This document shows, piece by piece, positions 40,891-63,158 of a stretch of DNA of 64,000 nucleotides (positions are counted from its first letter, which is position 1; the number at the start of each line of letters is the position of its first letter). The stretch spans positions 1,610,001 to 1,674,000 of the forward strand of contig NC_092566.1 of assembly GCF_037975245.1 (NCBI RefSeq). The letters are read 5' to 3'. This DNA comes from Apostichopus japonicus (taxonomy: Eukaryota; Echinodermata; Holothuroidea; Aspidochirotida; Stichopodidae). The notes beneath the pieces were generated by a model that did not search any database, had not been told where the DNA came from, and worked only from the letters and a program-made list of their open reading frames with translations. The position numbers were made by a program, and so were the translations under genes.

Positions 40891-40896
40891 TTTATT
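40891..40896 (-). terminator. Candidate STK31-like poly(A) signal
   Basis: TTTATT on the plus strand is AATAAA on the minus strand, about 460 bases after the STK31-like stop codon at 41354. Confidence 0.4.
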
Positions 40897-41353: not shown

Positions 41354-41454
41354 CTAATCGTCTAAGAGAGGCGGTGGTGAGTTTATCCTATCCACTGCAT
41401 CTTCTGTGTCATCCTCTGGCTGGACGTCACCGTTTGTCAGTGTCGCAGGAGGAC
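41354..41454 (-). CDS. STK31: STK31-like exon 21 (C terminus)
   Basis: Encodes 32 residues ending INSPPPLLDD and TAG at 41356-41354. It continues the acidic, disordered tail. Acceptor GATTTTCAG. Confidence 0.85.
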
Positions 41455-44400
41455 CTGAAAATCAAATCGACACAGCAGTGATCAGTATTCTCGGTACGTA
41501 TTTCTCCACTCGGACATAGATCTAGAACAAACATACTCTATAATTCTTCGGACATAGATGTAGAACAGACTTACTCTATAATACATCGGACATAGATCTA
41601 GGACGAACATACTAGATACCTCGGACATAGATCTAGAGCGAACATACTCTATAATACCTCGGACATAGATCTAGAACCAACATACTCTATAATACTGCGG
41701 ACATAGATCTAGAACCAACATTCTCTATAATACTGCGGATATAGATCTAGGGCGAACATACTCTATAATACCTCGGACATAGATCTAGAACCAACATACT
41801 CTATAATACCTCGGACATAGATCTAGAACCAACATACTCTATAATACCTCGGACATAGATCTAGAACCAACATACTCTTATAATACCTCGGACATAGATC
41901 TAGAACCAAGAAGAAGAACTGGTGAAACAAATCACGGTACCTTTACCTGCACAGACTCAATTATCTTGTACTGTATCATATTAACATATTCATATTACCA
42001 TAACAATGTACACACAGATTGCACTCATATTTCAACAATTTTGCAAGATATCAACAGACCGAACAATGTCATAAACTTGATCCTGCAGCCAAAACTGCCT
42101 ATATAAATTAATTGCTTGTAGTTGTCACATCGAGCATTCGCAATTCATTTTCTTTTCAGGGCCAGAGAGATACGTTAGTTGAGGTGGTTGTTGGGAGGAG
42201 GGGAGGGATAAATCTGTAAGTTATCTACCCCTTGAATACAAGGTTAACGATTGCAGAGGGGGCTTACTTTTATCAACACTGCTACCGTCAGCATCGTGGT
42301 CTTCTTCATCTTTCATTCTTCCATCCTCCGTCTCTTGCTGACTCTCTAACACTTTCTCCTCCTCCTCTTGTTCTACTAGATTTGCTGCCTCTTCCATCTG
42401 AGGAGCATCTTCTTCATCACACTCTAAGGTTTTGTCCTCCTCCTCTGTTTCTTCTTTCTGGTCACCATCCTCCTCCACTGCCACAGACTCTTGACCACCC
42501 CCTTCTGAGTGGTCAGGCATCTTCTTCTCTACATTTGTCGCATCTTCGCTTTCCTCTTCCTTAACGTCTTCCTCCGTTGTTTGTGGCTCTTCTGTTGGGT
42601 TATCTTCCACTCTATCCTCAGATGATGTCTGAGATAGTTCACGATCGGACGTCTGCGAAGGTTCGGGATCGGACGTCTGCGATGGTTCACGATCGGATGT
42701 CTGCGATGGTTCGGGATCGGACGTCTGCGTTGGTTCGGGATCGGACGTCTGCGATAGTTCGGGATCGGACGTTTGCGATAGTTCACGATCGGACGTCTGC
42801 GATATTTCAGGATCGGACGTCTGCGATGGTTCGGACGTCTGCGACGGTTCAGGATCGGATGGCTGTTCCTCTTCCGTTCCTTGTGTTGACACTAGCCGAT
42901 CGAGATAACCAAAGTCCAGGATGTGTTTCACTGTGGGCCTATTACTCGGGTTCACGTGGAGCATTGGCACGACAAAGTTAACCAGTTCTCGAGGAATGGG
43001 CAGTCCATCCAGATCGGGGGTACCATTTTGTTTGGTTTTGAATGGCGATGTGGGATAATGAGCCTGCATTAGAAAAGAAATGACATGAATTTGAAACAAT
43101 AGCAATGTAAAAATCATCCAACTATTGAGAAGAGAATATTTTAGTTTGTAGCAAAGCTTCCACAATTCTAAGAATGGCCTACTACTTATGCCACTGGATT
43201 TCAGTATCGTTACTCTTCATGTTAACATTGTTAACATGTTAAACAAAAAGCAACATGGTATTGTCTCCTTGTGGCACTATGATGTCACCGATTGACCATA
43301 TGGCCGATCGCTGATATGAATTTGAAACGCGATATCAATGAAGAAAGAAAACCAAGAGATTATTTTCCCTAAATATTTTGGAGCAATTAGTTAGTCACAA
43401 CTGTTTCTATAATATCATCTAAAGATGATGAGTGGGTTTGGTTGTGCTTCATGCAGTCTCTGAACAAAAGCTCTCTTTGGAATCTAACAGTGGTGAATGA
43501 AAATCAGATATTTAAAACTGAATCTAACAGTAGTGAATGAAAATCAGATATTTAAAACTGTATCTAACAGTAATGAAAGAAAATCAGATATTTAAAACTG
43601 AATCTAACAGTAGTGAATGAAAATCAGATATTTAAAACTGAATCTAACAGAAGTGTAAGAAAATCAGATATTTAAAACTGAGTATAACAGTAGTGAATGA
43701 AAATCAGATATTTAAAACTGAATCTAACAGAAGTGAATGAAAATCAGATATTTAAAATTGAATCTAGCAGTAGTGTAAGAAAATCAGATATTTAAAACTG
43801 AATCTAGCAGTAGTGTAAGAAAATCAGATATTTAAAACTGAGTATAACAGAAGTGAATGAAAATCAGATATTTAAAACTGAATCTAGCAGTAGTGAAAGA
43901 AAATCAGATATTTAAAACTGAATCTAACAGTAATGAAAGAAAATCAGATATTTAAAACTGAATCTAACAGTAGTGAATGAAAATCAGATATTTAAAACTG
44001 AATCTAACAGAAGTGAATGAAAATCAGATATTTAAAACTGAATCTAGCAGTAGTGTAAGAAAATCAGATATTTAAAACTGAATCTAACAGTAGTGAAAGA
44101 AAATCAGATATTTAAAACTGAATCTAGCAGTAGTGTAAGAAAATCAGATATTTAAAACTGAATCTAACAGTAGTGAAAGAAAATCAGATATTTAAAACTG
44201 AATCTAACAGAAGTGAATGAAAATCAGATATTTAAAACTGAATCTAGCAGTAGTGTAAGAAAATCAGATATTTAAAACTGAATCTAGCAGTAGTGTAAGA
44301 AAATCAGATATTTAAAACTGAATCTAACAGTAGTGAAAGAAAATCAGATATTTAAAACTGAATCTAACAGTAGTGAAAGAAAATCAGATATTTAAAACTG

Positions 44401-47400
44401 AATCTAGCAGTGGTGAATGAAAATCAGATATTTAAAACTGAATCTAGCAGTAGTGTAAGAAAATCAGATATTTAAAACTGAATCTAACAGTAGTGAAAGA
44501 AAATCAGATATTTAAAACTGAATCTAACAGAAGTGAATGAAAATCAGATATTTAAAACTGAATCTAGCAGTAGTGTAAGAAAATCAGATATTTAAAACTG
44601 AATCTAGCAGTAGTGTAAGAAAATCAGATATTTAAAACTGAATCTAGCAGTGGTGAATGAAAATCAGATATTTAAAACTCACCCAGAGCACTAGAATCCC
44701 AAAAGAGAAGATATCTGCAGCGATGGTTGCAGAAGCTCCATGAGCTATCTCAGGTGCTTGGAAACAAAGTCCGTTACTGCTCATATATGCCTTTTTGCCT
44801 TTATCTGCCTGAAATGCAAAGAAATGTAAATGTTTTTTGCTTTGAGCATTCTCCACGAGCTACTTGAATAGGAAAGAAAGATTTGATAGTCTTCGAATCT
44901 TGATGACTCACAAACTAGCTTAGCTTGAAGCGATGCAGTCGATCTATTTGCCAAGGCAATTTGTTGTGTGAGGTGAAACACGATATTACACGGCAGATTT
45001 ATGTGAACTATGATAGTATCAAACAGTGGATGGATGGGGGATTTTATCCAGTTGACTGAAATGACAAATGAAATATAATCAACAACTTTAAGTAATTTAC
45101 AACAAATTTATGACATTTGTAATTATATTTGGATGTAAATGTTTATATTTCGCCCAAAGTTCCACTATAAGGTGGTTTACTCACTGAAAGTGCAAAATAT
45201 CAATTGTCCATTGGACGACGATTCCTTTCAACTTAATGTGACAATGTCAGTCCCTATTCCTTAGTATTATAGCAAACTTTCTGATATATTTATAGCTATG
45301 CTGCTACAGTAGCAAACTATGTGCCTAAATGCCAAGAAAATTGTACTAACCCCCTATTTGTATGCATCGGTGGGGTGTTAGGGTAGAGTTTTGTATTTGT
45401 ATGCATCGGTGGGGTGCTAGGGTAGAGGTTTTTATTTGTATGCATCGGTGAGGTGCTACGGTACAGGTCTGTATTTGTATGCAGTGGTGATGTGTTAGGG
45501 TAGAGGTCTGTGTTTGTATGCATCGGTGAGGTGTAAGGGTAGAGGTTTGTATTTGTATGCATCGGTGAGGTGCTACGGTACAGGTCTGTATTTGTATGCA
45601 GTGGTGATGTGTTAGGGTAGAGGTCTGTGTTTGTATGCATCGGTGAGGTGTTAGGGTAGAGGTTTGTATTTGTATGCATCGGTGGGGTGTTAGGGTAGAG
45701 GTTTGTATTTGTATGCATCGGTGGGGTGCTAGGGTAGAGGTTTGTATTTGTATGCATCGGTGGGGTGCTAGGGTAAAGGTCTGCTTTTGTATGCATCGGT
45801 GAGGTGTTAGGGTAGAGGTTTGTATTTGTATGCATCGGTGGGGTGCTAGGGTAGAGGTTTGTATTTGTATGCATCGGTGGGGTGCTAGGGTAGAGGTTTT
45901 TATTTGTATGCATCGGTGAGGTGCTACGGTACAGGTCTGTATTTGTATGCAGTGGTGATGTGTTAGGGTAGAGGTCTGTGTTTGTATGCATCGGTGAGGT
46001 GTAAGGGTAGAGGTTTGTATTTGTATGCATCGGTGAGGTGCTACGGTACAGGTCTGTATTTGTATGCAGTGGTGATGTGTTAGGGTAGAGGATTGTGTTT
46101 GTATGCATCGGTGACGTGTTAGGGTAGAGGTCTGTATTTGTATGCATCGGTGGGGTGCTAGGGTAGAGGTTTGTATTTGTATGCATCGGTGGGGTGTTTG
46201 GGTAAAGGTCTGCTTTTGTATGCATCGGTGAGGTGTTAGGGTAGAGGTCTGTATTTGTATGCATCGGTGAGGTGTTACGGTAGAGGTCTGTATTTGTATG
46301 CATCAGTGGGGTGTTTGGGTAAAGGTCTGCTTTTGTATGCATCGGTGAGGTGCTACGGTAGAGGTTTGCATTTGTATGCATCGGTGAGGTGTTACGGTAG
46401 AGGTTTGTATTTGTATGCATCGGTGAGGTGCTACGGTAGAAGTCTGTATTTGTATGTATCAGTGAGGTGCTACGGTAGAGGTTTGTAGAGTTTCCTTCAT
46501 AGCATGTCTCATCCAACTTTTGATCTAACTCACCTGAGGTTTGCTCAGATCATATTCTGCTAGGTACACTTCTTCTGTAGATTTGAATAGGACATTGTTT
46601 GGATGGACGGCTCCGTGAATGAACTGAATGTTGTGAAGATCTTGTAACGCTAGAAGGATGTTCTTGAGATGTGTCAAGGTTTGGGACTGAGAAGGGGGCG
46701 GGTCGGACATCACTACGTCTTTGAAGCTACCCAGCTGGTGGTACCAGACTTGTAAGTGGTACTGGTTGGAGTCGTTGTCGGGAATTATGCCGTACACCGG
46801 TAGAAGGAGCGGGGACGAAATGGACTGGTACGTTTGCACCCTCTCTAGGAATGCTTTCTGGGATGAAATATCTGGTAAATGATGACTCTAGAAGAAACAA
46901 ACCCAGAAAGGAAATGAAGGATTTAATCAGGTTTCATTAAGCATTGTACAGTATTATTATTATTTTTTTTGTACAGGGTTGTAACATGCATTTATTGCTG
47001 ACCAAAGCCATGTTGAATTCACACATAATTGGATAACCGTCACTCTGAACAAAGAGTTATTAACTGTTTCATCATCCAATCTAGAAAATCTTTGTCCCCA
47101 CAATTTTAAAATGTGTCCAACAAACTTTCAAATAACGTTCACTCACATTACTGAAAATATTACTGAAAACAAGAATTTATGTCTGCTCGAGTCATGGCTG
47201 GTGCAATGTTGAGGAACTAGAATAAGAGCGTTAACTAACAGTTCGTCGTTATTTTGTTCAACGTCGTGTACGGCGACTCCAGATTGTAGCAGTTTCAAAA
47301 CATGACAATGAATGTGATTATTATGGGGGCACCCATGACAACTTGATTGAAGGGGATTGAAAATTGTCATCATTGGAAAACAAATATTTTTGAGGGCATT

Positions 47401-50400
47401 ACGGCAAGAGATAGGAGCAATATGTCATCATTTAATTCCCGATACATAAGCCACTGATTTCTGCCACACCATTTACATGGACCTCAAAACTGCAGGCAAG
47501 CCATCTCTATTAAGGAGCATCAGCAAACTTGTTGCTACTTTCAGCCCAGCCAAGGGACACGACTCTTAACAATGACTGTTATTACCACATATGCCCCCCC
47601 GCCTTCTTTAAAGCTTGAAATAGTATGTATATTCTTGATCCAATGATTCAAATTAAGCGGTTGTCCACATCACTTACTTCATAAAACAAAGCAATTCAAG
47701 ATTCATAAATAGGTTGGGTCTTACTTTGATAACAGCGACACCTTTAGAAGAGATTGATGCCAGCTTTGTAGTGGTCTTTTGGCAAGATGGGAACGGTGTT
47801 AAGTTGAAGTGCATTAGATCCCTCCCATCCTTCACAAGACCGTCAGTTTCCTGAAAAATAAAAATAAAAATTCTTGTAATATTTTATCTACCTTTCTTAC
47901 TCAATTTAAATCACTGCAAGACTCCCTGCAAGACAATTTACTCACTGCAAGACAATTTACTCACTGCAAGACAATTTATTCACAACAAGACTTCAAGAAA
48001 CCTATACTTTGGCTCACGTGGAACCTAATTCAGGATGGTTCAGGCTAGAGGTAGTGGACCACAGAAAAACATTGGTTGGAGGAAAGGGCAGGGGGAGAAC
48101 ACCCTAATCTCACTGTACATGTACCTACATTGAGCAATCAATGTGCATGTTAGGTCGGTAGGGTACTCAATAATAAAGCTCGCATACATAATTAGTGCGA
48201 GTGAATGGGATGATATCTGTAAAGCAGCCCATATTACAATCTATCGTGAGATGGCCATCTATTGACAACCACTGATTTAAGCTATAGCAGTAACTCATAC
48301 CAAGCCATTTTTCTTTTCTGTTCTACTGACAGTCACGTTTTAATTCACTATCTCACTGCTCCGGGATCTGTCAGAGATTCCAGATGGGAATGAATTTGTG
48401 TCTAAATTTTGAATAAAATTTGTTTAAGCACATTGCTCATTAGAAAATAGAAGGGTTCTGTATTCAAAAACTGAAAGCAGAGTTATGGAGAGCCAGGTCG
48501 AGCCTCAGAGACAATTTCTGTCACAGGACCCATTTCTGTCACTGGCCCCATTTCTGTGAACGGGCTCCATTTGTTCCACTCTTCATAACGTTTTAAAGGT
48601 CTACCATAATAGGCATCAGAAATCATTAAAATAACTTCAACTCCCATCAAAATCCATTTAAGAATGACCATTTGCAAGTCTTTTCTTAATTCTATTTCTA
48701 TTTATGAGTAAACATTAATTAGTTACTTACACACATTGAAGATGTACAGGGACTGACTGCCCAATTTTCTGTTATGTTATCCCTTTGTTTCAAGGACACT
48801 TGCAAAATGCTTCAAAGGGGGATATTACTATACGCTTGAGCGAAAGGTGATAGTTTAAAATGTCAAGAACTCTACTTACAATGTACTTCTGGAGGCCGAG
48901 AGTGGCATGTGTCATGGACAATTCTGGAAAGTGTTTTTTGGTAAGTTGAGCTAAATGTAACTAAGTAAGACAAAATATAAGTAAAACAATAAAAAAAATT
49001 GAAAAAGTGGTATATACATTTACAAATGTGCTATTCAACTTTTCATTTTTATTTTTCTTTCAGCTACCACAGAAACCTATTCCCTAAGAACATTTCTATC
49101 ACACCACAGGCAGAGATACGTTACTTTTTAAACTTTTATCAAATGTAAATATAAGACACAAAATTCACAGGAACTTTTCAGCATACGTTCGTGATCATTT
49201 TCGTAAGTCATACAGATAACAGAACTACCTACTCATTAAGTTCACGCAAAATTGTTTCATGGAAACAAATTTTGCTTCTAAAGGGGTAACCAAGTAAAAG
49301 TATTTTTTTCCTTAAAATTTATAGAAAGAAGATAACAAGAGAAGCATGCAATCAATTAGGTATAACTCATTTAACAAATTTCTTCTAGAGACAGCAGCCA
49401 TTCATGTGATTCTCATAACAAAAAGGAAGTCCAAGGAAATGAAATTCTCATGCTCTTTCTGCCCTAAAACAATTAAAATGTTATGACATTAAAATTAGAT
49501 TGAATTATACTACCAAAGGATACAACAAGTGCTGTAACTAATTTTGACCTTGAGTGACTTAATTTCAAATGTGAAGTGACTCAAACAAATTTTGTCGACT
49601 TTTTCCTCGAAGAGATAATACAGAGGACAAATGTCTCTCTGACTGGAGTAGGCTCAGAAAACTCACTGGCATTGACACGACTTGACCTTCCTTGCTTACC
49701 TTTAAAAATGAAGTGGCTTTTATTAAACACCTGTGTGCATCTCATTAGTCCATTACTAAGTGGTTCATTAAGTCCACACTTACCAGTAATTCATCTTCTC
49801 TTGTATAGTGTTTTAACAACTGTTCCTGATAGCTGGCGATGTCTCCTTTCAGCTCATCCACTGTTTTATCGCCCAAAAGGTCAGGATCCTGAAGAGCAAA
49901 GAATCAAATATTTTTCATCTTTCCAGTCGCCGGTATCGTAACACAGCTGATGCATCTTGGCTAATGCATAATCTGTACGTAGTCTAGATAAACTTTGCAT
50001 CATAATTACAACTGATGCCTGCACACTTATGTGACCTACTAGCTCCACCAAACACCGGTGGGTATGCAGGCATATATGTATGTTGAGTAAGTGGCTATGA
50101 CTTGGGCACACACAACAATTTGATCTCCCTTTGATTGAGGACACTTGTCAAAAATCTGTCGGCAGTCAAGACAACATTTAAGACCAGATGTTGAACAGAT
50201 GTGAATAATATCGTGATGATGTTGCTTACCTCTTCCCCGTCTCTGAGATCCACCAATAAATGTCTAAGTTTTGACCTAGCCACCTTGATCTTCTTCTGTA
50301 ATGTCTGCAGCTCATCGACATTGGGCGTGGCGTCCAGCCACTCCTCCAGCTCCTTCATCCTCTCCTTGTACCTCTTGCAGTGGGTAGACAGCTGATCCAA

Positions 50401-53400
50401 GAGGGCCGCCTCTTCGTTGATGTCACGGAAGACCATCTGTACCGTCTTGGTGAGTACTTCGTTCTCTAACTGCAGTTCGGCTTGTCGTTGTTTGAGAATC
50501 TCTGGATTCAGTGGAATGTGCGGCTCGTAACCCTGTAAGTGGGAGAGATAACATTGGATGTTCAGATTCAAACTCAAGAAGTACTTTATTTCTATATTAT
50601 GTATCCATCTCAGAGGTGAGAAACAAAACGTGGAGAATCCTCATTCCAAATTCCCCCCCCCCCCTTCTCTTCCTATGTAAAGCTGAAAAATGTTTATCTA
50701 AAGAGGTATATCAGATTAGAGACAGACATGTTCATTGGTGACATGAGATATCTCTCAAATTGTGACAACCACCTCTATCACAATATAAGTTGTTTGTGAA
50801 TGACACAACATCAATACTTTTGTGTTGCTTTGGCATGATTTTCTTGGTGCGAGTCGGTGAGATCGGCTGTGATGATACAAGCTACGAGACATCTCTAACT
50901 CCGCAAAGTTGAACCGAATGTGATCATACATTAACAAAGAATACCAAACATACCTGACAAGATACAACCAGTTCGGTTTCCATGGCAACCAGAAGTTGCT
51001 GAATGCTGGCATCCAAGTTTTTAGCTTCAAATTCACTGCAACTCGAGAAACTGAATGCCTGTGAGAAAAAAGACGGACGGAATGCTTATCGGTCAAAGTG
51101 TTTCTTAAGAGGATGCTCAACGACACATCAAACCAAAAACAGTCTCACAGCACATGTGGATCGATGATGTCATATTTAGACTTGCTAAAGTCTTCAGCCT
51201 TTGTATGTTAAGGAACATTAAACCTGAATTTTCTCAACTTTGAAAATTGTTCTTCTCAGCCATTTGGGGAGGGGGGAATTGTCCATACGGTTATCTACAT
51301 AACATAGTCCGATGATGTTGGAGCATGTGTCTCATTTAAATCAACTTCCTGAGGAACACTGACCTGGGTCATATCTGAGAGGATATGCTCCCAGCTGGAC
51401 AAAGCTTCGTCTGTCTCCTTCCAATAACTTCTCAGTTTCTTCATTTTCAGATCCTGTCATGTAAAAAAGGAAAGAGTTTGTTCAAATAAAAAGAATTGGC
51501 CAAGGATGAATTCATTATTGACCGCCGGTAAATGTAGAAGCTAACTAAACCATCAAATTTTTCAATTAGTTCCAACCCGCACTCGGGAGTTGACAATATT
51601 TTCTCCATATCAATGAAACAAATTTTTGGTATTGAGTTGACTTAACAAGTGGAGAATTTAAATTTGTATAAACAGAAATAGACTGAAAAAAGTTAACTTT
51701 TTTTTTAATTCATATTTTTGTACTCATTTTGTGTTTTCAATAAGTTTTGTATTTCTTGTACCCTTTCTACAATTTTGTGACTTATTGTGCATTTGAGCCA
51801 TCTTAGATTTTTGATAATTGGATGATTAAATAAATATACAATATACAATACATAATAAACAAATTAAATATGCATCCATCACTTCAAACTTATTTACTGA
51901 AGTTCACTTTTACATACAAACTAACAATTCAACTACCGGTACATTTGAGAAAACCCTTTCTGCAAGATGGAAGTCAGTTTGACCTCAACTTGCTACTTAC
52001 TCAGAACTTAAATCAGAGAATACCAACTTACCAACCAGGCTTTGTACTGATCATAGGTTTCTTCTGGTGAGCCCTCTACAGCACAATGCGGCTTTAACAG
52101 TGAAGGGTAACCTGCGTTGATGGTGCCTAACATATCCTACGAGGCGGGTGGGGGGGTGAGGGAATAAAAGAAAACAACTTTGTTTATATTAAAAATAAAT
52201 ATCATAATCATTTTCATGCAAGGAGTAATACAAAACACAACTTTACATAATTATATATATATTATCAATTTGAAGTGGTTTGAACTAAGAATTAGATCCG
52301 ATCAGCTTTTGTTTGCGAAATCACTGCCCTAGCAACCTCTGTCTTTACTCTCCAATGACCTTTGACATTATATGTTATGATAACCTCAATATTTTATCAT
52401 CTTTCTCATTCCTTATTTCTTCTTTTCCCATTGTCTTTCCTGCTTACACCAGAGGAATTATGATCCACAAGATTTATCATAACCTTTCTTCAGGCATTTC
52501 TTCAGCCATTTTCTCTCAGTTTTGCTCTGTTCTAATTTCTTTGTAAACTTTGATATATTTGTTGTTTCTCACTCTTATGTATGTTTACCTCGATATTTAC
52601 TGACAAAAAAATTCATTGATTGATTGGAATTCCATAGATCTGCTTGTTTCTGAAATCATTGATTGATAGATAAATTTTGAAAATAACCTGATATTGAGAC
52701 TGAAAGTTTGGCGAAAAGAATCAAAACAATGATTGCAATCACTCACATTAAGGTACAATCCTTCAAGATGTTTTCAACAAGTGAAGGTTAATACACAATA
52801 TCATAACAACATTTCAGTTCTTTACACTTCGTTGCACAATAACTTTGCACAATGGTATTCATCACATGTTATAAGCAACATGGAAAATTTGTGAAATTTC
52901 AATAGTTTAATTCTCAATTTTAAATGAAACTAAACTATTCAGGCTCATGCGCTATGTTGTTTTGAGATTAGTGAGTCCAACAGCATCCAAAAAGTGATCA
53001 TAAACCTAACAAGAAACATGTGCTTGAAAATATGAAAATATTATTTCCATTTGACCATTATTCATGTCATTAACAAAATACAAATCCATTTCTGATAATA
53101 CTCACTCATTTCTAGGGTTGGAAAGAAACAAGTCGTGTTAGTTCATGTCTTAGAGATGTGAACATGTAAAACTCAATGTGATCCACAATAATTTCATGAA
53201 CAAATCAAATAACCAGGCATACAGTGGTTGTACTTTTTAACTGTTTCTTGCCTTCCATTCCTTTATTGGTGTGTTCTACTTTGTTAAGCTTGAAGGCTTC
53301 CTAGAAAACTTCCTTTCACAATTATGTTGTACTAATTTACGATCCAAGTATATTTAATATTATTGTGAAAATGAAATAAATCAAATAAAACTATTTGCAT

Positions 53401-56400
53401 GGCTACCTGCAAAGCTGCCAATCTTTCTCCGACGGGCAACTCATCCGAGACTATCAGGAAATCGGTCATCGCCTGATATGATTCATGCCGAGCACTATTT
53501 CTCTTTTCCACCAACTGGGCTAGCTCCTCCTGAAATTTAGAATTTACAGGAATATTATTATTATCCCTTCCAAGAAATAATGCTTTATCTTGGTTGGCCT
53601 GGCTGGACTATGAATGTATATAAAGGAATATATAGCAAAGACTGCACCTCTGCATGTAGCAAAACTATATGCATACATATATATTAGAGACTATATGTTT
53701 ACTTATATATTACAGACTTTATGTTTGCATATATAGCAAACACTATATGTCTGCATATATAGCAAAGACTATATGTTATATAGCAAAGACTATGTTTACA
53801 CATATAGTAAACACTATATGTCTGCATATATAGCAAACACTATATGTCTGCATATATAGCAGACTATATGTTTGCATATATAGCAAAGACGATATGTTTA
53901 CATACATAACAAAGACTTTATGTTTGCATATATAGCAAAGACGATATTTATACATATATAGTAAAGACTATATGTTTGCATATATAGCAAACACTATATG
54001 TCTGCATATATAGCACGGACTATATGTTTGCATATATAGTAAACACTATATGTTTACATATATTGTAAACACAACATGTTTGCATATATAGCAAAGACCA
54101 TATGTTTACATATACAGTAAATTTTAATAATAAGAAACAGTTACTGGAAAAGGAGACAAGTAACCTTCTAAGAGAGATAAAAGAGTTTTCAGAACCAGTG
54201 AGGAATGTACTTTTTCTTCAGTTATCAAGAAGGATTGACATGAGCTTTTCCTTAACCAGAATCATTAAAATATTATTATCCTCAGAGCTGTGTCACTGTC
54301 TGCATATTGGAAGTACCTCTGACCTCACCTTGTTGGAACAAGATCTTATCATGTCTTGCCATTGGTTTAGGACCTCCAACTTTTCTTCCACCGAATTGGA
54401 TTTTGGGGTTGCATCGCGAAAGGTTTTCTTTTCCCCGTTGAGAGTGATCTCCCCTCCGTGGATGATATCGATGGCATTCTCTAAGGGAGCCTTCTGGTTA
54501 TCATCTGCTGGATACAGACTCCTGTAAGTTAAAATACCAAAGTATTCATTGATTAATCTATTAATACCGTAGTATTCATTGATTAATCTATTATATCCAA
54601 TGTAGTAACGATTGTTGACTGATTCAGTACACAGGGTTTGATCGGACAAACTCCTGTAATATAAAATACCAAAGTATTCATTGATTAATCTATTACGCAA
54701 AGTGTGACTAACACTTAGTATTCATTGATTAAACTATTATGTCCAATGCAGTAATGATTTTGTTGACTAATGTTGTACACAGGGTTTAATCTGGCTGAAT
54801 TACACTATAGATTCCAGTGTCCCTGTGAGCTGTAGAGCTGAATACCGCACTGCGCACGGTAGAGCTGATCCGTCCAGAATTATCAGTGTGTGTAAAAGTA
54901 AGTTGGCCTGCGGTTTTGATCCTAGCAGGATCTTCTTCAAAGTCTAAATGACAAGTAACAGTAACAGAAGGGACAAAAACACGCACAGAATACAGACAGG
55001 TTAATGAGCATGGTGAACACAAAGAGATAGATGTAAGGGGATTAGTAGACAAGGGATGGAGAGAAGAAAGAAAGAAACCAACAGGGGAAGAGGAGAGGTA
55101 GGAGATAAGCAGTGGAGGGACAGAATTATCAGTGACAAATGCAAGCACGACCCACCCTCAGCGCATATGATCGGTGACAAAAACTAAATGTGAAAAAGGA
55201 AGCGGTGAGCTAAACACACAGTACACAGGATTTGATTGGGCAGGATTCCGACTTAAATAACAGGGTGTTCCCACAAAGCTGTACAGCTGAATGATACGCT
55301 GTGCCTAGTACTGAGCCTACCTCCCTACTGTTTTGGGCACAGTTGTAGTGTACACTTATTTATTTACCTAGCTTTCTTGACTCTTCGTAAACTACCCAAG
55401 ACGGTCGCTACTTTGTAATCGATTGCAAAATCCACCTTCTCTTTATAACTGTTCACTTCTATTTCTTTGGTTGACTGTGAGAATGAAAAAAAGAAAGGGA
55501 AAGAAAAGGTCAAAAATTGAGTACAATTATTCACATAAAAACTATAAAGACAATCTTGCTACCTTAAGTTACTTGAATTAAATCTGACAAAATCAATTCA
55601 TAATTGGAATACTCTGCTCTACCAAAATGCATTTATCAAGTCTATCCATATTTCATGAAAATTTATATTTCCTATGAAATGTAGACAGCTCTTGATCCAA
55701 TTTTCAATGAACTGAAGATTTGGTTTATATGTATTCCATAAATTGACTGCCTAAACTCTCCGACCCGCCCACACCCCCCCCCCCACCCCCACATTCCTTG
55801 CCTCCATTCACTGTCCACTGACATGCATACACTACTTGTACTGTAGTCGTCCCTGCCTAACAGATTTGTGGTGAATCTGTGATACCATTCCAATCAAGTT
55901 GCCTGTACTTCAACTTGCCCCCATCGATTTGTAAATGTACTCCTAGTACTCAGAGCAATCTAGAAGTCTAAGTACAAGATGTGAACAAGTACTCGCACTG
56001 AAGACCTTGTACTCTTAGTATTAGCACTCATGACTGATAGGGGGGCAGTTGCTACTTTGAATTCAATGGTAGATGAAACCAAACACAACCTACCACGCTC
56101 TATCCAATAGTTCAAATTTAAAGACACACGTCACGGTCATATGAACAGCAGTTTTCTGCCGCCATTTTGCTGTTACTATTTAATAAACAAAAGAGAAGAG
56201 AAGAGATCTTTACCCCAAGTACTTGCATATCCATCTTCATTTCATGAACCTTCTGAATCAAGTTTGCTTTCTCGTTCTGTAACTGCGCCACGAGGGCCGC
56301 AGTACTGTCGTTCGACCCTGATGGGGATGGTGCGTTCCAGTTCCTCTGGGGAAGCTGACTGGGCCTGCCAGTTGAATAATGGCCACCCCCACCCACATCC

Positions 56401-59400
56401 TGCTGAAGCTGCTGAACCTGCTGAACTGGAGACATAACCGGACTAGGCCGTTTGTCTGCAAAGTTGTTCTGAATGATTTCGTTGACGTTCTGTCCATCCA
56501 GGAAGACCACAACCGAATACTCTTGTGGTCTCTGTTGTTGGTTTGATATTCTCACCGTAACTTTGTCAGCTTCAGGTAACTTTGAGAGATACTCAAAGGC
56601 CTAAGGGAAAACAGAATCCAAAGTTAAGAATTAAGAAGTCAGGGCTTCATTAAGCTTTGTAACATTCGGGGCGCATCTCTAAATCAAAATTTCATCACAA
56701 GAACATTTGATGTACTCCGATGTTGAAAATCATGTAAAAGAAGCAAAACAAGTTCAGAAACGAAGAGTGACCGACCACCTTCAAGTTGTTACTAGTTATA
56801 GAAAGTAAAATTTGAAACCAGCCCTAAAGATACCACTTTCTGATTGGAAGACATTCTTTATGAGTGGAGTATTTATCTACTCTACTGCACCAGTGGTAAT
56901 AGCCAGTAATTTAGCCATCCAGTGTATTTGGATGTTCAACTTGTTTTGAAAATAACTTTGGAATGACTAAGTAGGTGAAATGATCATCAATCGACATTAG
57001 TTGACGAGCCGAAGTACTGAAAATTTATCAACAAGATTACTGCCTGTCTGTTGTGGCCAGAGAAATCACATTTTTATTATTAATGGGTGCAAAATATGTT
57101 TTGGACCCCTTTGCTCCACAGAGAAACCACCTCCTCCAGGGAGTGACAAAAATGTTCTTTTAGATTAACTTGGAAACTAATGTTCAATCATCTACAAAGT
57201 TTATATCAACTTTACAACTCCTTGAGGTTTGGATAAAGCTTGTAAAGTTTGATATAATGGCCAAAATTCCTCCAAAAAAAATTGACACGGCAGTGCTCTT
57301 GCTCGCTTCACGTTCGCTTTCATACTGAGGGTTAAAACCCAAATAAAACATATCTTCAGATCAGCATTTGAGAACTGAATGAAAATATCACCAGAATCTT
57401 GGTTTTATTAAGTTCCACTTTTTACAAGGCTTAAAATAAAATTTACCTATGAAACTATCTGTTTAAACCCCCAAAACACACAAACATGTTACAAAGTGAT
57501 ATATTAATATTGAACCTTTTTAAGTTCTGATTAACGCTCCCACCACCAAGTTGGGACAATCATTTCATCTTTCCATCGGATAAAGCTTTCGAAATGTCGG
57601 TAAAAGTACTCCAAAGTTTCACATGAAAGGAACTTTATGGGTGGTAACTACTGATTACAATATTGTCGCCTATTGGCTGCTCTTCCTAAGCTTTGCAATA
57701 TCGAACGAACCCTTTCTCCGTTTTTCATTTGCACATTGAGAAAGAATAAGAAAAAAAAATGTCAAAACCAACCTTCTGAGCATTTTCTGATGATTTGTTT
57801 GGAAATGCGGATTCCAGTCCGTAGAGTGACATCTGGATGGCGAAGAAAGGAACGCTAGCTAATGCCGGGGGGAGCTCCACCACGGCGTCCACGGTCTCTT
57901 CATTGCCGTAATCAACGAACCCAACGGTCACCTGCAGGGTGTGAAATATCAGCGAGAGGTCTTGACCAATCATCTCAATATCATTGTAACCATCAGATAG
58001 GGGAAGGGGGCGGGAGAGGGCAATAAAATGAATTGTTTTACACTGTCAACCCAAACAACTGTAAAAAGAATTGGGACTGAAGGCTGTGAGAGGTTGGTCG
58101 GATTATGAAATGTTGTGAGCAGAAGGGGAGGTGATGAGTGACATGGTGGATTGATATGGTGGGGTGGGGGTGGGGGACTTTGACACTCTCTCACTTGGGG
58201 GAACACTTGGTACACTTATTTTACCAGCCTGGATGGTATCAACATACAATTAGCTTTTGGAGTAGCTGATTATTTACTTGACAGACAGAAATATGAGAAG
58301 GACCCTCCTGACAAAGATAATGACAACCTCCTCCCCCCCCCCCTTCCCATTTAATGAAAGACAATAACACTAATTTTGTGCATAACTTCCAAATCAGATC
58401 AGAGGTTCACATTACTTTTCGACAACAAGCATTGATCAATCCCCGCCCCCCCTCTTCCCCTTTCCCTCACTGCTCATAAAATCACTTTAAAGATAAGACT
58501 TTATACAGATACAATATGGAATAGTTTTTAATGTGTTCCATATATATTAAATATTTATTTGACAACCAAAAGTCCCGTTCCCATAAATATACTCACACAC
58601 CCTAGAGTGCTTATTCTTTCCCCTCATTCAATATTTTTGTCTTCTTCCATTGGTGCAGGATTTGACAAATGTTTGAATACTGCCAGGGACTTAATTACTG
58701 ATATGTAAATTACCTTGCCTGTGGTTGGATCGGTTCCTTTAACTGTACACCTGTACCATCCATTATCTACACTGAATATAGCACCATAGACCTGTCGACA
58801 GAAAATAATAAAACAGTTATTAGTGTCAGGCTTATTTTCAGGCTCCTAGTGTATCTAGGAGTGTGCAATGACGATAAGTTAACTGTTACAAATCATATAT
58901 CGAAAATGTTAGCTAAAGTGTATTATATTGTTTCGACATTAGCATTCACTGTCCCATACTTTTCCAGTGATACAATAGAAAGGGTGTTCGCGGCGTCTGT
59001 CTTGCCGATCCTAGTACATGCGGTTTCAGTTTGGTATCATTTTGTACACATTAAAGATAAGAGAAGAATAAGAAGTTTCCTTAAATTTTGTTCAAAAATT
59101 TTCAGGCTTAATTATAAGAATCTTGTATATAGAGTCAATGAATCTGCTAGGGATGAATTTATAAGACTTGTCAAAAATATTCAAACTACTAACGAACATC
59201 CTCTACATTCCAGGCTCAACTCTCTGTGCAATAAAACAAATTATAATTTGAGAAATCCAAATATCACGCCATGTTTTAGAATTATACTCTTTAAGAACTT
59301 GTTTATTTACAGAGCAGCCCTTTTTGTACAAAACGGCTCCTTAGATCCTTTATTGTAGCTTTTTGATAATGTTTTAGAATTTCTACTCTTTAAGAACTTG

Positions 59401-62400
59401 TTTTATTTACAGAGCAGCCCCTTTTCGTAAACTGGTAAAGACAGCTTCTTAGATCCTTTGTAGCTTTTTGATAATTTTGATAACTTTTGTAACGCTTTTT
59501 ATCGTTCATTATTATCTTAATCTCATAAACTTTTGTCTTGACCTGTATTTTTGATGTTCTGTATATTTTTATATTTTTATCTTATTTATAAAATTCTCTG
59601 TAAATTTATACTGGAATAAAGAAATGAAAATGAATGTAATGCTTCCTAAATAAACAACAAACAGAAGTCATTTCACACACACATACAAACACCGTCACAC
59701 ACACATGCACACATACAAGCAATTCCCTAGAACATAGCTAGAGTTTGATATTTTTCTTACGAGTACTTCATTATTTGAACTTGACCGAGTCATCAAGGTT
59801 ATGACCTAAATCGTTACTGGATTTTAGTACCGATTAGGAAAAATGATCAAAATGCTAAAAGGTTGCTCAAAGAATCCTTTACAGCTTTGTTGTCATCTCA
59901 AGAAATTTTCTCCCAATCAGACGAGATCAGAGTTTTCTCGGATCAAGAGATTGATCACTATATATAACACGGTTTAGATAGACATTATTTTGTATATCAA
60001 GAGAATTTAATGAGCGATATCATCAAAGTCCTTACGTGATTTGGTTGAATCTCCGTAGCTGGGGTAGGCCCATAAGCACAATGCTCAAACAGCTGGTTGA
60101 TCATAGTCTGGTAGGCTGTGGCCGTTTCTGCATTACAAATCTGAGCAAAGAATGTTGTCGAATCCACCACGTGGGTCACTGCGATAGTTTCCTGTAGTGT
60201 GCAAGGGAGGGCCAAAGAAAAATAAAGGAAATTAGTTTTGTTTTATTTGTCATAAAGATGAGAAATTTAAGTCAAAGAAATATAACCTTCCATCCTTCAT
60301 AATTCTAGTAAGTAATGAAGCCAGTTGTGTAATGGGAATGAAGTCATCAACACCGCCCCTCCCCCACCACCCTAGGGTGTAGATGCAGACTACAAAAGGT
60401 AATATGTGGAACTGTAAGTGGTTTCAAAGATAAAAAGAGCAGCAGGCCTCTAAATTCAGGCTTTTAATGGCTAAAAGTCTGTGGGTGTTTCCAGTTGAGA
60501 GAAAAGACACTGCCAGAAAACATTAAGAACATAAACAACTGGTGAGAAGGTTAATAATCCTCAGTCAATGAGCTGGCTTTATTTCCATAACTAACATGAA
60601 ATCCAGAAGTACTGGTAACTTTCAACAAAATAATATTGGGCTGCTCTCACCAGCCTTTAACAGCCAGCAACTAATGTGATGTAGTTTAATATTATGCCTG
60701 TGAGAGAATTGATTTTAGCCAGTAGAGTGTTTTTAAAGCACATGCATCTTATTAGCAGGTCGCTGAAAATGTGAACTACTAGGCCTGATCACTGAATGGG
60801 TTGTTGGCTCACTCTCCCAGTTAGGCAAATGGAAGTGGGATTTAACATAACATGCAGTCAGTTGTCTTAATCAGAAGATAATGGCAGTAGGAGGGAGTTG
60901 CTCAGGCATTTTGTAAGCAGGTTGCTGAAATTGTGAACTACTAGGCCTGATCACTGAATGGGATGTTGGCTCACTCTCCCATTTAGGCAGTTTGACAGCA
61001 AACGGAAGTGGGGATTTACCATAACGTGCAGTTGGTTGATAGAAGAAGATAACCGCAGAAGGGCGGCAGAGTTGCTCCCTTGTACCATCAGAAGTTAGTT
61101 ATGCCCCTTAAATTATTCAGAGAGCATCAGTATCAATCTTTGACGACTACTTCCGAGCAACATTGCCTAACAGTGTCTTCTATAGTCTCAAAACAATTAG
61201 TTTTAGTTTGGCTTAAATTGGGTATTTATGATCAAATTTCTTACGGGATCCAAACCAATAAAAGTTAACTAAATTGAAAAGAATTATGAAATTGCCAGTA
61301 AAGTTGAGGGTAGCAACATCATGCCTAAAAGAAAGCAAAAATACCACCAAAGATAATAAAAGGACTTCTTGAAAATTTGTAAGATTTATGAAGATTAATG
61401 TAACAACTATTTCAGCATATGAATAATTGAGATAGTGTTACCTCTTTCCACATCCTTGACTCTTCTCTATCATAACCAGCATCACCCCAAGGTCTGTTAC
61501 CGTATCCAATCTGCGGTGACCTTCTTTGTACTGAAACTGAAAACGATAACATTCTCAAATTTGTTTTTGATTAATATCTTCACCTTGTCTGATAGAAAAG
61601 AGATGTCTGGGATGATCAACCTATCCTAATCGCTAGGAAATTGTTCACTTTGAGACACATTAATAAACATTGCCAAAGGAGTTCTCATTTTTCTCATGTG
61701 GCTATTTTGAGATCAGTGTGTTTCCAGTTTGGGTCAGATATACGTCCAACTGGTGCACTAACTGAGCCCAGTTTGATGTCCAGTTTGAGTCCATCTGGTA
61801 CTGAGTGTGAGTCCAATGCATGTCCAGTGTGAGTCAGTGTCAGTCCAATTGGTGTCCAATGGTGTGAATCCAATAGGTGCACTATCTAACTTTAGTTGTG
61901 TCCAGCATGAGTCCAGTGTGAGTCTGGTTGGTGTTCAGCATTAGTCTGGTTGGTGTTCAGCATGAGCCCAGTGTAAGTCTGGTTTGTGTCCAGCGTGAGT
62001 CCGATTGGTATCCAATGTGAGTCTGGTTAGTGTCTAGCATGAGTCCAGTATGAGTCTGGTTGGTGTCCAGCATGAGTCTAGTTGATGTCTGGTGTCTATA
62101 GTTCTTCCATAAAGGCATCTCTCCTACTTTACTCTGAAAAGTAGTACTGCTTAATTCATCTCAACAGTCAACAGTTAAACATGAACACGATACCCTTGTA
62201 ATCAAAAATATAAATAACATACATAGGTAAGAAAAGGAGAGTTAAAATAATTGTCTCCCTACACACCTATATCACGTCAATGCCACTGCTACCCACCTGC
62301 CATCCCCTCCCACCCACGGGCAAAGTTCCAATTTCATTCGTCAATCTATATAATCAGTCAATAAATAGAAGTACAATAGAAATATCTCCATATCAATCCA

Positions 62401-63158
62401 TAAAAGTATTTTTATTAAAGTCACAAACCTGGAAAGTTTCTTGCTTCGGGTGGACGCATTACACCTCCTTCCATTTTGTTACTGTAAATAAATTAGGAAG
62501 GTTTCAAAGTCAGTTTTTGTTTTTGAGTTGCTTCGACTAAGCAAAACATACTTCGACTAAGCAAAATACATACATACATACAAAACATGTTTCATTTATA
62601 TGTCAACATTTTGCTTCAAGCAAGTCGTGTACTTCAGGACAAATATGTTATTAGAGTGTCTCTGAAATGCAGTGTAAGAAACATAACAAATGTCCAAGGA
62701 AAACTGAACTATCATCAACATTTCAAAATAGATATCACGATTTAATACTCCCCAACTCTTCCAAATGTTGTTATTTAAACAAATATAGAATTTTTGGACA
62801 AATATTGTAAGCTTTCGGCACTCTTTTCAGTCAACTGACTGCTAATTAGACATTTCAAGAAATTTTGACAGATTGCTAGATTATCCTGAAAATTTACGAC
62901 TATTTTTTCTTATAAACGTGTTCAAGAAGCTTGGAGAATTTAGTTTAGTTTTACTACTGTACATATTGCAGGAAATGAAGGAACTGGTATGATATCTTGT
63001 GTAACTTTGATCTGTGCTATTTTTTTTTGGGTAAGAATGAAGTCACTTACGGTTTTCTTCCAGCTGGCTTCACTGATAGGGCCTTTCCCCTGTACATATG
63101 GCCATTGAGTTCAATAATGGCAGTCTCAGCATTATCTTCATTGAAAAATCTTACAAAG
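41354..63158 (-). CDS. STK31: STK31/TDRD8-like RRM-Tudor-coiled-coil-pseudokinase protein, 21 exons, 5' end missing
   Basis: Exons (high to low): 63158-63051, 62481-62429, 61530-61442, 60191-60036, 58791-58714, 57931-57773, 56600-56214, 55474-55368, 54521-54329, 53529-53407, 52136-52032, 51453-51364, 51058-50954, 50532-50230, 49888-49784, 48960-48880, 47850-47725, 46887-46534, 44808-44683, 43063-42268, 41454-41354. All junctions are GT-AG and in phase, giving about 1247 residues. Visible residues 1-36 are the second half of an RRM, about 85-205 an extended Tudor domain with FVDYGN, 320-720 mostly helical or coiled coil, 748-1007 kinase-like, 1018-1096 S/T-Q repeats, then an acidic tail. Tudor plus coiled coil plus C-terminal kinase fold is diagnostic of STK31, a germ-cell protein linked to the piRNA machinery in mammals. 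The RRM and the long tail are not part of the mammalian layout as I know it. Active-site changes predict a pseudokinase. Confidence 0.9.
41500..41910. repeat. 38-bp minisatellite in STK31-like intron 20
   Basis: About ten tandem copies of a 38-bp unit containing CGGACATAGATCTAGAACCA and ACATACTCTATAAT. Most units carry an AGATCT hexamer. Confidence 0.95.
42268..43063 (-). CDS. STK31: STK31-like exon 20: kinase C-lobe end, SQ repeats, acidic tail
   Basis: A 796-bp exon. It begins with the end of the kinase fold (NPSNRPTVKHIL, with the subdomain XI arginine). It continues into ten tandem 8-residue units and then about 120 residues dominated by glutamate and aspartate. Acceptor CTAATGCAG, donor A|GTAAGC. 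Confidence 0.9.
42622..42858 (-). repeat. Coding 24-bp minisatellite: ten S/T-Q units
   Basis: Units follow SDPEPSQT with variants (SDRELSQT, SDPEISQT, one TQ unit, one 6-residue unit). The period is a multiple of three, so copy-number change keeps the frame. Confidence 0.95.
43481..44680. repeat. 40-bp minisatellite, 30 copies, STK31-like intron 19
   Basis: Exactly 1200 bases without a length change: AATCTAACAGTAGTGAATGA followed by AAATCAGATATTTAAAACTG. Variation is limited to a few positions (A/G at 7, T/A at 11, GAATGA/GTAAGA/GAAAGA at 15-20). The array ends two bases from exon 19. Confidence 0.98.
44683..44808 (-). CDS. STK31: STK31-like exon 19: activation-segment end and C-lobe
   Basis: Encodes ADKGKKAYMSSNGLCFQAPE, then DIFSFGILVLW. 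APE and the D-x-x-S-F-G motif of the C-lobe are intact. Donor TGG|GTGAGT, of which the last four bases belong to the adjacent minisatellite. Confidence 0.92.
45350..46490. repeat. 39-bp minisatellite, about 29 copies, STK31-like intron 18
   Basis: Unit contains TTTGTATGCATCGGTG and TAGGGTAGAGG. Period 39 is divisible by three, so one minus-strand frame stays open across the whole array (repeating LYPNTSPMHTNT). A block of several units near 45447 recurs near 45915, exactly 468 bp (12 units) away. Confidence 0.97.
46534..46887 (-). CDS. STK31: STK31-like exon 18: kinase catalytic and DFG region
   Basis: A 118-codon exon. The catalytic loop reads HGAVHPNNVLF where active kinases have HRDLKPxN, so the aspartate is alanine. 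The Mg-binding loop reads AEYDLSK where DFGLSR is expected. Donor CAG|GTGAGT; reading on gives a stop two codons later. Confidence 0.94.
47725..47850 (-). CDS. STK31: STK31-like exon 17: kinase-like N-lobe
   Basis: Forty-two codons ending KGVAVIK, which matches the VAIK strand with its lysine retained. No glycine-rich loop is evident upstream. Confidence 0.85.
47935..47990. repeat. Short tandem repeat, 19 bp
   Basis: Three copies of CTCACTGCAAGACAATTTA in intron 16. Confidence 0.9.
48880..48960 (-). CDS. STK31: STK31-like exon 16
   Basis: Encodes LHLAQLTKKHFPELS and on to GLQKYI in phase 0 at both ends. The acceptor CTTACTTAG at 48961 is chosen over a nearer CCAG at 48924, because only it keeps the frame. 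Confidence 0.8.
49784..49888 (-). CDS. STK31: STK31-like exon 15
   Basis: Thirty-five codons, helical and charged (TVDELKGDIASYQEQLLKHY). Donor CTG|GTAAGT. Confidence 0.88.
50230..50532 (-). CDS. STK31: STK31-like exon 14: coiled coil
   Basis: One hundred and one codons with heptad-like leucines and charges (EILKQRQAELQLENEVL, KERMKELEEWL, LQTLQKKIKVARSKLRHLL). Likely dimerisation or assembly segment. Donor GAG|GTAAGC. Confidence 0.92.
50954..51058 (-). CDS. STK31: STK31-like exon 13
   Basis: Thirty-five codons (AKNLDASIQQLLVAMETELV), amphipathic helix. Acceptor TTTTCTCACAG, donor CAG|GTATGT. Confidence 0.88.
51364..51453 (-). CDS. STK31: STK31-like exon 12
   Basis: Thirty codons (LKMKKLRSYWKETDEALSSW), helical. 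Donor CAG|GTCAGT. Confidence 0.86.
52032..52136 (-). CDS. STK31: STK31-like exon 11
   Basis: Thirty-five codons including GYPSLLKPHCAVEGSPEETY. Acceptor is pyrimidine-poor (GCCTCGTAG); donor TTG|GTAAGT is strong. Confidence 0.86.
53407..53529 (-). CDS. STK31: STK31-like exon 10
   Basis: Forty-one codons, starting EELAQLVEKRNSARHESYQA. Donor CAG|GTAGCC. Confidence 0.86.
53660..54115. repeat. About 26-bp minisatellite in STK31-like intron 9
   Basis: Many imperfect copies of CATATATAGCAAACACTATA followed by TGTCTG or TGTTTG, with scattered length changes. Confidence 0.92.
54329..54521 (-). CDS. STK31: STK31-like exon 9
   Basis: Sixty-four codons plus one base, including NAIDIIHGGEITLNGEKKTF and VEEKLEVLNQWQDMIRSC. 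Acceptor ACTTACAG; a duplicated acceptor lies 132 bases upstream and in frame. Confidence 0.9.
54522..54745. repeat. Repeats with duplicated acceptor upstream of exon 9
   Basis: AAGTATTCATTGATTAATCT recurs several times. The copy at 54651-54700 also includes CTCCTGTAA, which on the minus strand is an acceptor plus the first exon bases. Confidence 0.88.
55368..55474 (-). CDS. STK31: STK31-like exon 8
   Basis: Thirty-five codons plus two bases (KEIEVNSYKEKVDFAIDY), helical. Acceptor ATTCTCACAG, donor AG|GTAAAT. Confidence 0.86.
56214..56600 (-). CDS. STK31: STK31-like exon 7: end of Tudor fold, Q-rich linker, coiled coil
   Basis: One hundred and twenty-nine codons. It starts with the last SN-like strands (KVTVRISN, YSVVVFLDGQNVNEII), continues as a glutamine, proline and glycine-rich linker, and ends in a helix LVAQLQNEKANLIQKVHEMK. 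Donor GGG|GTAAAG. Confidence 0.93.
57773..57931 (-). CDS. STK31: STK31-like exon 6: Tudor core
   Basis: Begins VTVGFVDYGNEETV, the signature Tudor strand with aromatic-cage residues and the arginine-contacting asparagine. Continues LPPALASVPFFAIQMSLYG, the extended-Tudor linker. Confidence 0.96.
58714..58791 (-). CDS. STK31: STK31-like exon 5: Tudor first strands
   Basis: Encodes VYGAIFSVDNGWYRCTVKG and on to TGK. W-Y-R-C/A is the canonical first cage strand of a Tudor domain. Phase 0 at both ends. Confidence 0.95.
58845..59640 (+). mobile_element. 5'-truncated LINE (non-LTR retrotransposon), reverse transcriptase C terminus
   Basis: Open frame 58849-59358 begins YLGVCNDDKLTVTNHI, like the end of CR1/L2-type reverse transcriptases (YLGV..DDKL...HI). 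It continues with the downstream thumb-like helix region and conserved YNLRN. The 3' tail is AT-rich and ends in GAAATGAAAATGAATG. The element is inserted antisense in STK31-like intron 4. Only the 3' end remains, as is usual for LINE copies. Confidence 0.8.
59278..59478 (+). repeat. Tandem duplication of about 100 bp inside the LINE 3' end
   Basis: CTTTAAGAACTTGTTTATTT, GAGCAGCCC and TAGCTTTTTGATAAT occur in the same order in two neighbouring copies. The first holds the end of the open frame. Confidence 0.85.
60036..60191 (-). CDS. STK31: STK31-like exon 4: extended Tudor N-terminal strands
   Basis: Fifty-two codons: VTHVVDSTTFFAQICNAETA and on to YGPTPATEIQPNH. The V-x-H-V-x-(S/D)-x-x-x-F-x-A/Q pattern precedes Tudor cores in the Tudor-SN type fold. 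Donor CAC|GTAAGG. Confidence 0.93.
60745..61045. repeat. Tandem duplication, about 157-bp period
   Basis: TGTGAACTACTAGGCCTGAT and the following TGGCTCACTCTCCCA occur near 60770 and again near 60927 in intron 3. Confidence 0.9.
61442..61530 (-). CDS. STK31: STK31-like exon 3: RG-containing linker
   Basis: Encodes QRRSPQIGYGNRPWGDAGYD and on to RMWKE, a flexible linker between RRM and Tudor. Acceptor TTCAGTTTCAG, donor GAG|GTAACA. Confidence 0.82.
61720..62100. repeat. Degenerate GTCCAGTGTGAGT minisatellite
   Basis: Many imperfect copies of TGTCCAGCATGAGTCCAGTG with GTGAGTCTGGTTGGTGT, period about 30, in intron 2. It accounts for the short open frames here on both strands. Confidence 0.88.
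62429..62481 (-). CDS. STK31: STK31-like exon 2: linker
   Basis: Encodes NKMEGGVMRPPEARNFP with split codons at both ends that fit exons 1 and 3. Acceptor TTATTTACAG, donor CAG|GTTTGT. Short, so supported mainly by phase and position. Confidence 0.72.
63051..63158 (-). CDS. STK31: STK31-like first visible exon: second half of an RRM
   Basis: Encodes FVRFFNEDNAETAIIELNGH then MYRGKALSVKPAGRK. FVRFF is the RNP1-type strand, A-x-x-A-I-x-x-L-N-G the second helix, and G-x-x-L-x-V-x-P the last strand of an RNA-recognition motif. The first half must be in an upstream exon, which I could not find before 64000. Donor CC|GTAAGT. Confidence 0.82.

Follow-up and report, generated by a model that had tools for sequence, protein, structure and literature searches.

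A sea cucumber STK31 orthologue predicted to begin with a complete RRM

Our analysis of a 64,000-nucleotide stretch of the Apostichopus japonicus genome (C6:1610001-1674000, here called the window) points to a single gene in which a complete N-terminal RRM precedes a Tudor domain, a coiled coil and a pseudokinase, and which is the sole STK31 (TDRD8) orthologue that the genome searches detected; we give this reading a probability of about 0.7. What appears to be new is the complete N-terminal RRM. Mammalian and zebrafish STK31 are not reported to have one, and a literature search, with subscription journals and supplements outside its reach, found no description of an STK31 with an RRM. Coordinates are in window numbering unless stated, window-extended numbers continue beyond 64,000 (L009:740-825 is window-extended 64740-64825), and genome searches covered 671.6 Mb in 35 contigs.

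Results

An initial annotation of the window had described an STK31-like gene of twenty-one exons joining in phase. Rebuilt from the DNA, the gene lies on the minus strand and has 23 exons and 22 GT-AG introns, and its joined exons amount to 3,903 bases, or 1,300 codons plus a stop (Table 1). Twenty-one of the 23 exons lie within the window, from 63158-63051 to 41454-41354, with AG/GT borders and no stop before the TAG at 41354; the coordinates first given for 63158-63051 and 62481-62429 were recovered exactly. Two exons beyond the window edge (C6:1674740-1674825 and C6:1676033-1676098) finish the RRM and supply the ATG start, whose context is GTAAGATGGC. An AATAAA stands at 40896, beyond the stop. 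Chance exon chaining as an explanation of the whole model was rejected on the three Pfam domains, the STK31 alignment and the matching exon borders described below. A bacterial promoter scan was uninformative.

A Pfam search of the full 1,300-aa protein, with family cut-offs applied, returned RRM_1 at residues 11-78 (E 6.3e-16, profile positions 1-69 of 70), TUDOR at residues 137-252 in a single stretch (E 2.9e-20) and Pkinase at residues 835-1053 (E 3.4e-17), with PK_Tyr_Ser-Thr also over its cut-off on the last stretch, and so confirmed the annotated order of RRM, Tudor and kinase fold. Cornifin, on the repeat array of the tail, and three other Pfam families stayed under their cut-offs. By its profile score the RRM is certainly coding. 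The exon at 63158-63051 had been taken for an RRM half, and it does encode the second half of the domain; the RRM itself is complete with the two exons past the window edge. Its RNP2 reads VFVGSL (residues 11-16) and its RNP1 reads SKFCFVRF (residues 48-55, crossing the exon 2/3 border), and the aromatics F12, F50 and F52 sit in these motifs at what we take to be the RNA-contacting positions.

Among solved structures the Tudor part is closest to CG7008 (E 7.3e-12), presumably Tudor-SN, and to TDRD1; none of the 16 PDB sequences matching it is TDRD10 or STK31 by name. F194, Y201, F219, Y222 and N224 align with the aromatics and asparagine of the solved Tudor-SN and TDRD1 domains, and we assume that they belong to the cage. 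The extended Tudor domains of Tudor-SN/SND1 and TDRD1 share these aromatic positions and the DYGN motif with the protein described here, whereas their other domains differ and they belong to different families. Support for the annotated coiled coils was moderate, with heptad periodicity at p<=0.02 in 19 of 259 sequence windows, nine of which begin between residues 665 and 745 while the rest are scattered.

Aligned with LIMK2 and RSK, the kinase fold has HGA in place of the HRD motif (the aspartate replaced by A935) and EYD in place of DFG (residues 953-955, with E953). The Pkinase match begins at profile position 23, beyond the Gly-rich loop, and K842 aligns with the lysine in the VMVMK of LIMK2. 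The HRD aspartate, the DFG aspartate and the Gly-rich loop of an active kinase are all missing from this match. Because of the HGA and EYD replacements the fold should be a pseudokinase, as the initial annotation had called it.

Orthology to STK31 was assessed with a provisional human STK31 sequence, not one fetched from a database record (1,019 letters, the length given in PMC2754085). Residues 135-1042 align with it at 23% identity (192 bits, E 6e-51), and segments taken singly gave E values of 4e-11 for the Tudor domain, 3e-12 for the coiled-coil region and 8e-24 for the kinase fold; the best of 50 shuffles reached 21.9, 21.9 and 30.4 bits, respectively. In mouse, residues 84-161 come from exons 5-6 and residues 691-880 from exons 17-21 (PMC3929691). 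Mapped through the alignment with the provisional human sequence, all four of these borders (84, 161, 691 and 880) lie no more than one residue from borders 188/189, 267/268, 773/774 and 960/961, the last two within exons 18-21; a rough count of 22 borders in 1,300 residues puts the chance of each match at about 5%. Judged by this alignment and these borders, the gene is an STK31 orthologue.

The published layouts agree with the annotated view that known STK31 consists of a Tudor domain followed by a kinase fold: human STK31 is described as a kinase-like non-kinase with Tudor at 28-147 and the kinase-like region at 739-972 of 1,019 residues (PMC2754085), mouse STK31 as Tudor plus kinase (PMC3929691), zebrafish Stk31 in a table as 977 aa with one Tudor and one kinase-like domain (PMC5485951), and STK31 generally as a single T3 Tudor plus PK (PMC12147562, Table 1). 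The order and spacing of Tudor, coiled coil and pseudokinase are the same here as in human (Q9BXU1), mouse and zebrafish STK31, with 583 residues between Tudor and kinase against 592 in human by the ranges of PMC2754085, and the HRD aspartate is lacking in known STK31 as well as here, where DFG is EYD. The ends differ: the N terminus consists of RRM and linker, 136 residues in all, where known STK31 has about 31 unrelated ones, and 247 residues rather than about 47 follow the kinase.

No second STK31 was detected in the genome with a query lacking the RRM, 18 of the 21 best candidate matches being this locus and the other three a multi-Tudor frame on C9; nor was there among these 21 best candidates a retrocopy that would show splicing. 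The C9 locus (C9:6664070-6670942) is a Tudor-repeat protein with 11 Tudor matches, all within a single open frame of 2,482 codons. No relatives turned up in collections of prokaryote and viral contigs, as expected for an animal gene.

The RRM and Tudor parts can be connected in frame, in keeping with the annotated RRM before Tudor. The donor of exon 3 is GTAAGT, in the top 6.2% by splice matrix, exons 4 and 5 join exon 3 in frame, and both are required to keep the frame. Exon 4 is open solely in the required frame, exon 5 in two of the three frames. The gap offers 47 candidate exons, from which no more than three in-frame linkers could be formed, all of them containing exon 4. The alignment with the provisional human STK31 sequence does not cover residues 1-134; it starts about one codon ahead of the phase-0 border between exons 5 and 6. 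Taken as a prediction from the DNA, splicing of the RRM exons to the Tudor exons is likely. Exon 5 also has tandem acceptors at 61536 and 61530, six bases apart, the choice between which would add or drop two residues.

The 247 residues beyond the kinase match carry a net charge of -68, and the long acidic tail with ten S/T-Q units in the initial annotation is present as ten [S/T]QTS units, nine SQTS and one TQTS. These are encoded by a 24-bp tandem repeat at 42627-42859 (10.0 copies, 83% matches), and we interpret the array as a coding minisatellite that grew by repeat expansion, probably with a variable copy number, rather than as a purpose-built phosphorylation cluster. From residue 1063 on, the 238-aa tail contains 11 SQ/TQ, a count matched by only 3 of 2000 tail shuffles, as would suit a cluster of checkpoint-kinase (ATM/ATR) targets regulating the protein; this is very improbable, since growth of the tandem DNA repeat explains the count and further minisatellites lie in introns 20-22 of the same gene. 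Intron 11 has one too (Table 1).

Upstream of STK31, and head to head with it, lie divergent plus-strand reading frames (L009:4513-8400), the first of which begins MDAVSRRQEARRRRLQQDPEERLRRI and has its ATG about 2.5 kb from the STK31 5' end, which fits a neighbouring gene; a membrane-like frame occurs within them at L009:7039-7497. CAMLG/GET2, suggested by a likeness of the first exon, was dropped as a name for this neighbour, no Pfam family being over its cut-off for three candidate exons.

Elsewhere in the assembly, contig C35 (16,099 bp) looks mitochondrial. Its cox1 begins at the first base and is open under codes 5, 9 and 13, with five stops under code 2, and under code 9 (echinoderm) it gives residues that we assume to be the conserved ones. 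Its tRNA order is R...K...S...H-S...F...E-T...P-Q-N-L-A-W-C-V-M-D-Y-G-L...I; the large rRNA comes last, the protein genes were assigned by eye, and we take this gene order to be that of echinoids and holothuroids. The mitochondrion is most likely of echinoderm type. Further cox1-like stretches at C29:14745-31219, in two groups about 15 kb apart, are perhaps a mitochondrial concatemer or a nuclear copy.

Table 1. Exons of the predicted STK31 gene and minisatellites in its introns (window numbering unless stated).
Feature	Coordinates	Strand	Content
Exon 1	window-extended 66033-66098; L009:2033-2098; C6:1676033-1676098	minus	RRM first half, ATG start
Exon 2	window-extended 64740-64825; L009:740-825; C6:1674740-1674825	minus	RRM first half
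Exon 3	63051-63158	minus	RRM second half, from end of RNP1 to last strand
Exon 4	62429-62481	minus	linker; Met90 and Met95 as possible internal starts
Exon 5	61442-61536	minus	linker; Met133 just ahead of Tudor
Exon 6	60036-60191	minus	start of extended Tudor domain
Exon 7	58714-58791	minus	Tudor core; 5' border agrees with the border of mouse Stk31 exon 5
Exon 8	57773-57931	minus	Tudor core (FVDYGN); 3' border within one residue of mouse exon 6 border
Exon 9	56214-56600	minus	end of extended Tudor and Q/P-rich linker
Exons 10-13	55474-55368, 54521-54329, 53529-53407, 52136-52032	minus	helical / coiled-coil region
Exons 14-17	51453-51364, 51058-50954, 50532-50230, 49888-49784	minus	helical / coiled-coil region
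Exons 18-21	48960-48880, 47850-47725, 46887-46534, 44808-44683	minus	most of predicted pseudokinase
Exon 22	42268-43063	minus	end of predicted pseudokinase, 10 [S/T]QTS units, acidic tail
Exon 23	41354-41454	minus	last codons, stop TAG
Minisatellite, intron 11	53657-54121		26-bp unit, 18.3 copies
Minisatellite, intron 20	45355-46487		39-bp unit, 29.1 copies
Minisatellite, intron 21	43480-44679		40-bp unit, 30.0 copies
Minisatellite, intron 22	41509-41909		38-bp unit, 10.6 copies

Discussion

The alternative to one gene encoding RRM and Tudor together is a pair of adjacent genes, or two products of one locus, namely a stand-alone RRM protein of 87 aa from exons 1-3 and an RRM-less STK31 started at Met90/95 or Met133. 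Such an arrangement would be consistent with the stop met directly past the exon 3 donor, with an ATTAAA at 62746 in intron 3 and an AATAAA at 62416 in intron 4, with the internal Met codons ahead of the Tudor domain, with the beginning of the alignment to the provisional human sequence only at residue 135 and with the description of vertebrate STK31 without an RRM in PMC3929691, PMC2754085 and PMC5485951. It is nevertheless unlikely, given the GTAAGT donor of exon 3, its in-frame connection to the Tudor domain by exons 4 and 5 and the few frames in which these two exons are open; moreover, the upstream neighbour is divergent and some 2.5 kb off, and the RRM exons therefore lie where the 5' end of STK31 could be.

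Several observations weigh against a single RRM-Tudor-pseudokinase gene. One of the three in-frame linkers exchanges exon 5 for 61588-61521 and scores 22.7, against 22.1 and 22.0 for the other two. Of 110 overlapping control stretches, matched in length and drawn from both strands of window positions 1-41000, 25 gave an equally good in-frame linker and 80 gave some in-frame chain, so that a chance origin of the linker, considered by itself, was not rejected. By score, the RRM-side splice sites are poorer than those elsewhere in the gene. The poorest belong to intron 2, whose donor ranks in the top 17.8% and whose acceptor ranks in the top 24.7% among all GT/AG, although the protein there still reads RNP1. 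The codon usage of exons 1-5 is weak: 8 of 211 intron windows reach the same score, and for each of exons 3, 4 and 5 another frame does better. Exon 3 read past its donor makes an 87-aa RRM-only product possible, and Met133 could start an STK31 that lacks the RRM. The human sequence behind the orthology and the border mapping is provisional, and PMC10953240 describes STK31 as a serine-threonine kinase with a kinase domain essential for that function. Finally, mouse Stk31 mutants are fertile (PMC3929691), and since the gene is dispensable for fertility in that species, any role may be minor.

If RRM and Tudor are indeed parts of one STK31 chain, the origin of the RRM bears on the relation of STK31 to TDRD10, which is listed as a single T3 Tudor plus RRM, of unknown function and with no fly counterpart listed (PMC12147562, Table 1); the RRM-plus-Tudor layout agrees with the initial annotation. 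Both of these domains are encoded at the STK31 locus, in a predicted joint transcript, together with a predicted pseudokinase, whereas TDRD10 as listed has no kinase fold; PMC5485951 applies the name TDRD10 to SMNDC1, a different protein. No TDRD10-like gene was seen elsewhere in the genome among the best candidates of a second search (14 matches, four of them this gene). No RRM came up near five other Tudor sites (those of C1, C15, C4, C3 and C20, the Tudor sites of C5, C21 and C9 lying outside the scan) when 12 surrounding stretches of 10 kb were scanned with a home-made profile, partly built from this gene, that could miss intron-split RRMs; as a positive control it recovered all three RRM exons of this gene, two of them only at E 0.009 and 0.31.

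Two origins are compatible with a single RRM-bearing STK31 gene. The RRM is a common mobile domain, and it is a real possibility, somewhat short of even, that echinoderms gained it by capturing exons into the phase-0 intron 5, with no relation to TDRD10. This would fit the start of the alignment to the provisional human sequence, about one codon ahead of the border between exons 5 and 6, and the closest solved-structure matches of the RRM, which are general RRM proteins such as PABP (best 60 of 181), but the join comes from one species only. It is more doubtful that STK31 carried the RRM ancestrally and that vertebrates lost it or split it off, with TDRD10 keeping the other half: the layout of TDRD10, the fact that no fly counterpart is listed for it and the scan that saw no RRM near the five other Tudor sites would agree with this, whereas STK31 is an independent orthogroup in the text of PMC12147562 and zebrafish Stk31, too, is listed without an RRM (PMC5485951). 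Quite unlikely is the fuller version, in which the ancestral animal STK31 was a four-part scaffold of RRM, Tudor, coiled coil and pseudokinase, kept in echinoderms and divided in vertebrates by complementary loss, TDRD10 having kept RRM and Tudor and STK31 having kept Tudor, coiled coil and pseudokinase.

As to function, we tentatively propose, at slightly less than even odds, that this STK31 is an adaptor of germline ribonucleoprotein granules. The RRM would hold single-stranded RNA, the extended Tudor domain would bind PIWI or other granule proteins by their dimethyl-arginine tails, the coiled coil would render STK31 dimeric and the dead kinase fold would offer a protein-docking surface. In this way the RRM would build into the same chain a contact with RNA for which vertebrate STK31 would have to rely on partners. 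The proposal, for which we infer germ-cell expression and a joint RRM-Tudor transcript, is based on the domains, the RNP motifs, the Tudor aromatics, the lost catalytic residues and the similarity along the length of STK31. Piwi-domain matches occur at three places in the genome, and mouse STK31 is reported to interact with MIWI (PMC3929691, PMC10953240).

The value of the finding lies mainly in the lead that it offers on the relation between STK31 and TDRD10, and public echinoderm STK31 gene models may already show the RRM layout. If the RRM is an echinoderm gain, the gene would show a germline Tudor protein obtaining an RNA contact of its own through exon capture. If TDRD10 and STK31 instead descend from one RRM-Tudor-pseudokinase scaffold, redundancy between them would be a testable reason for the missing mouse phenotype and, should complementary loss be true, the joint loss of TDRD10 and STK31, rather than of either alone, would reveal the ancestral function.

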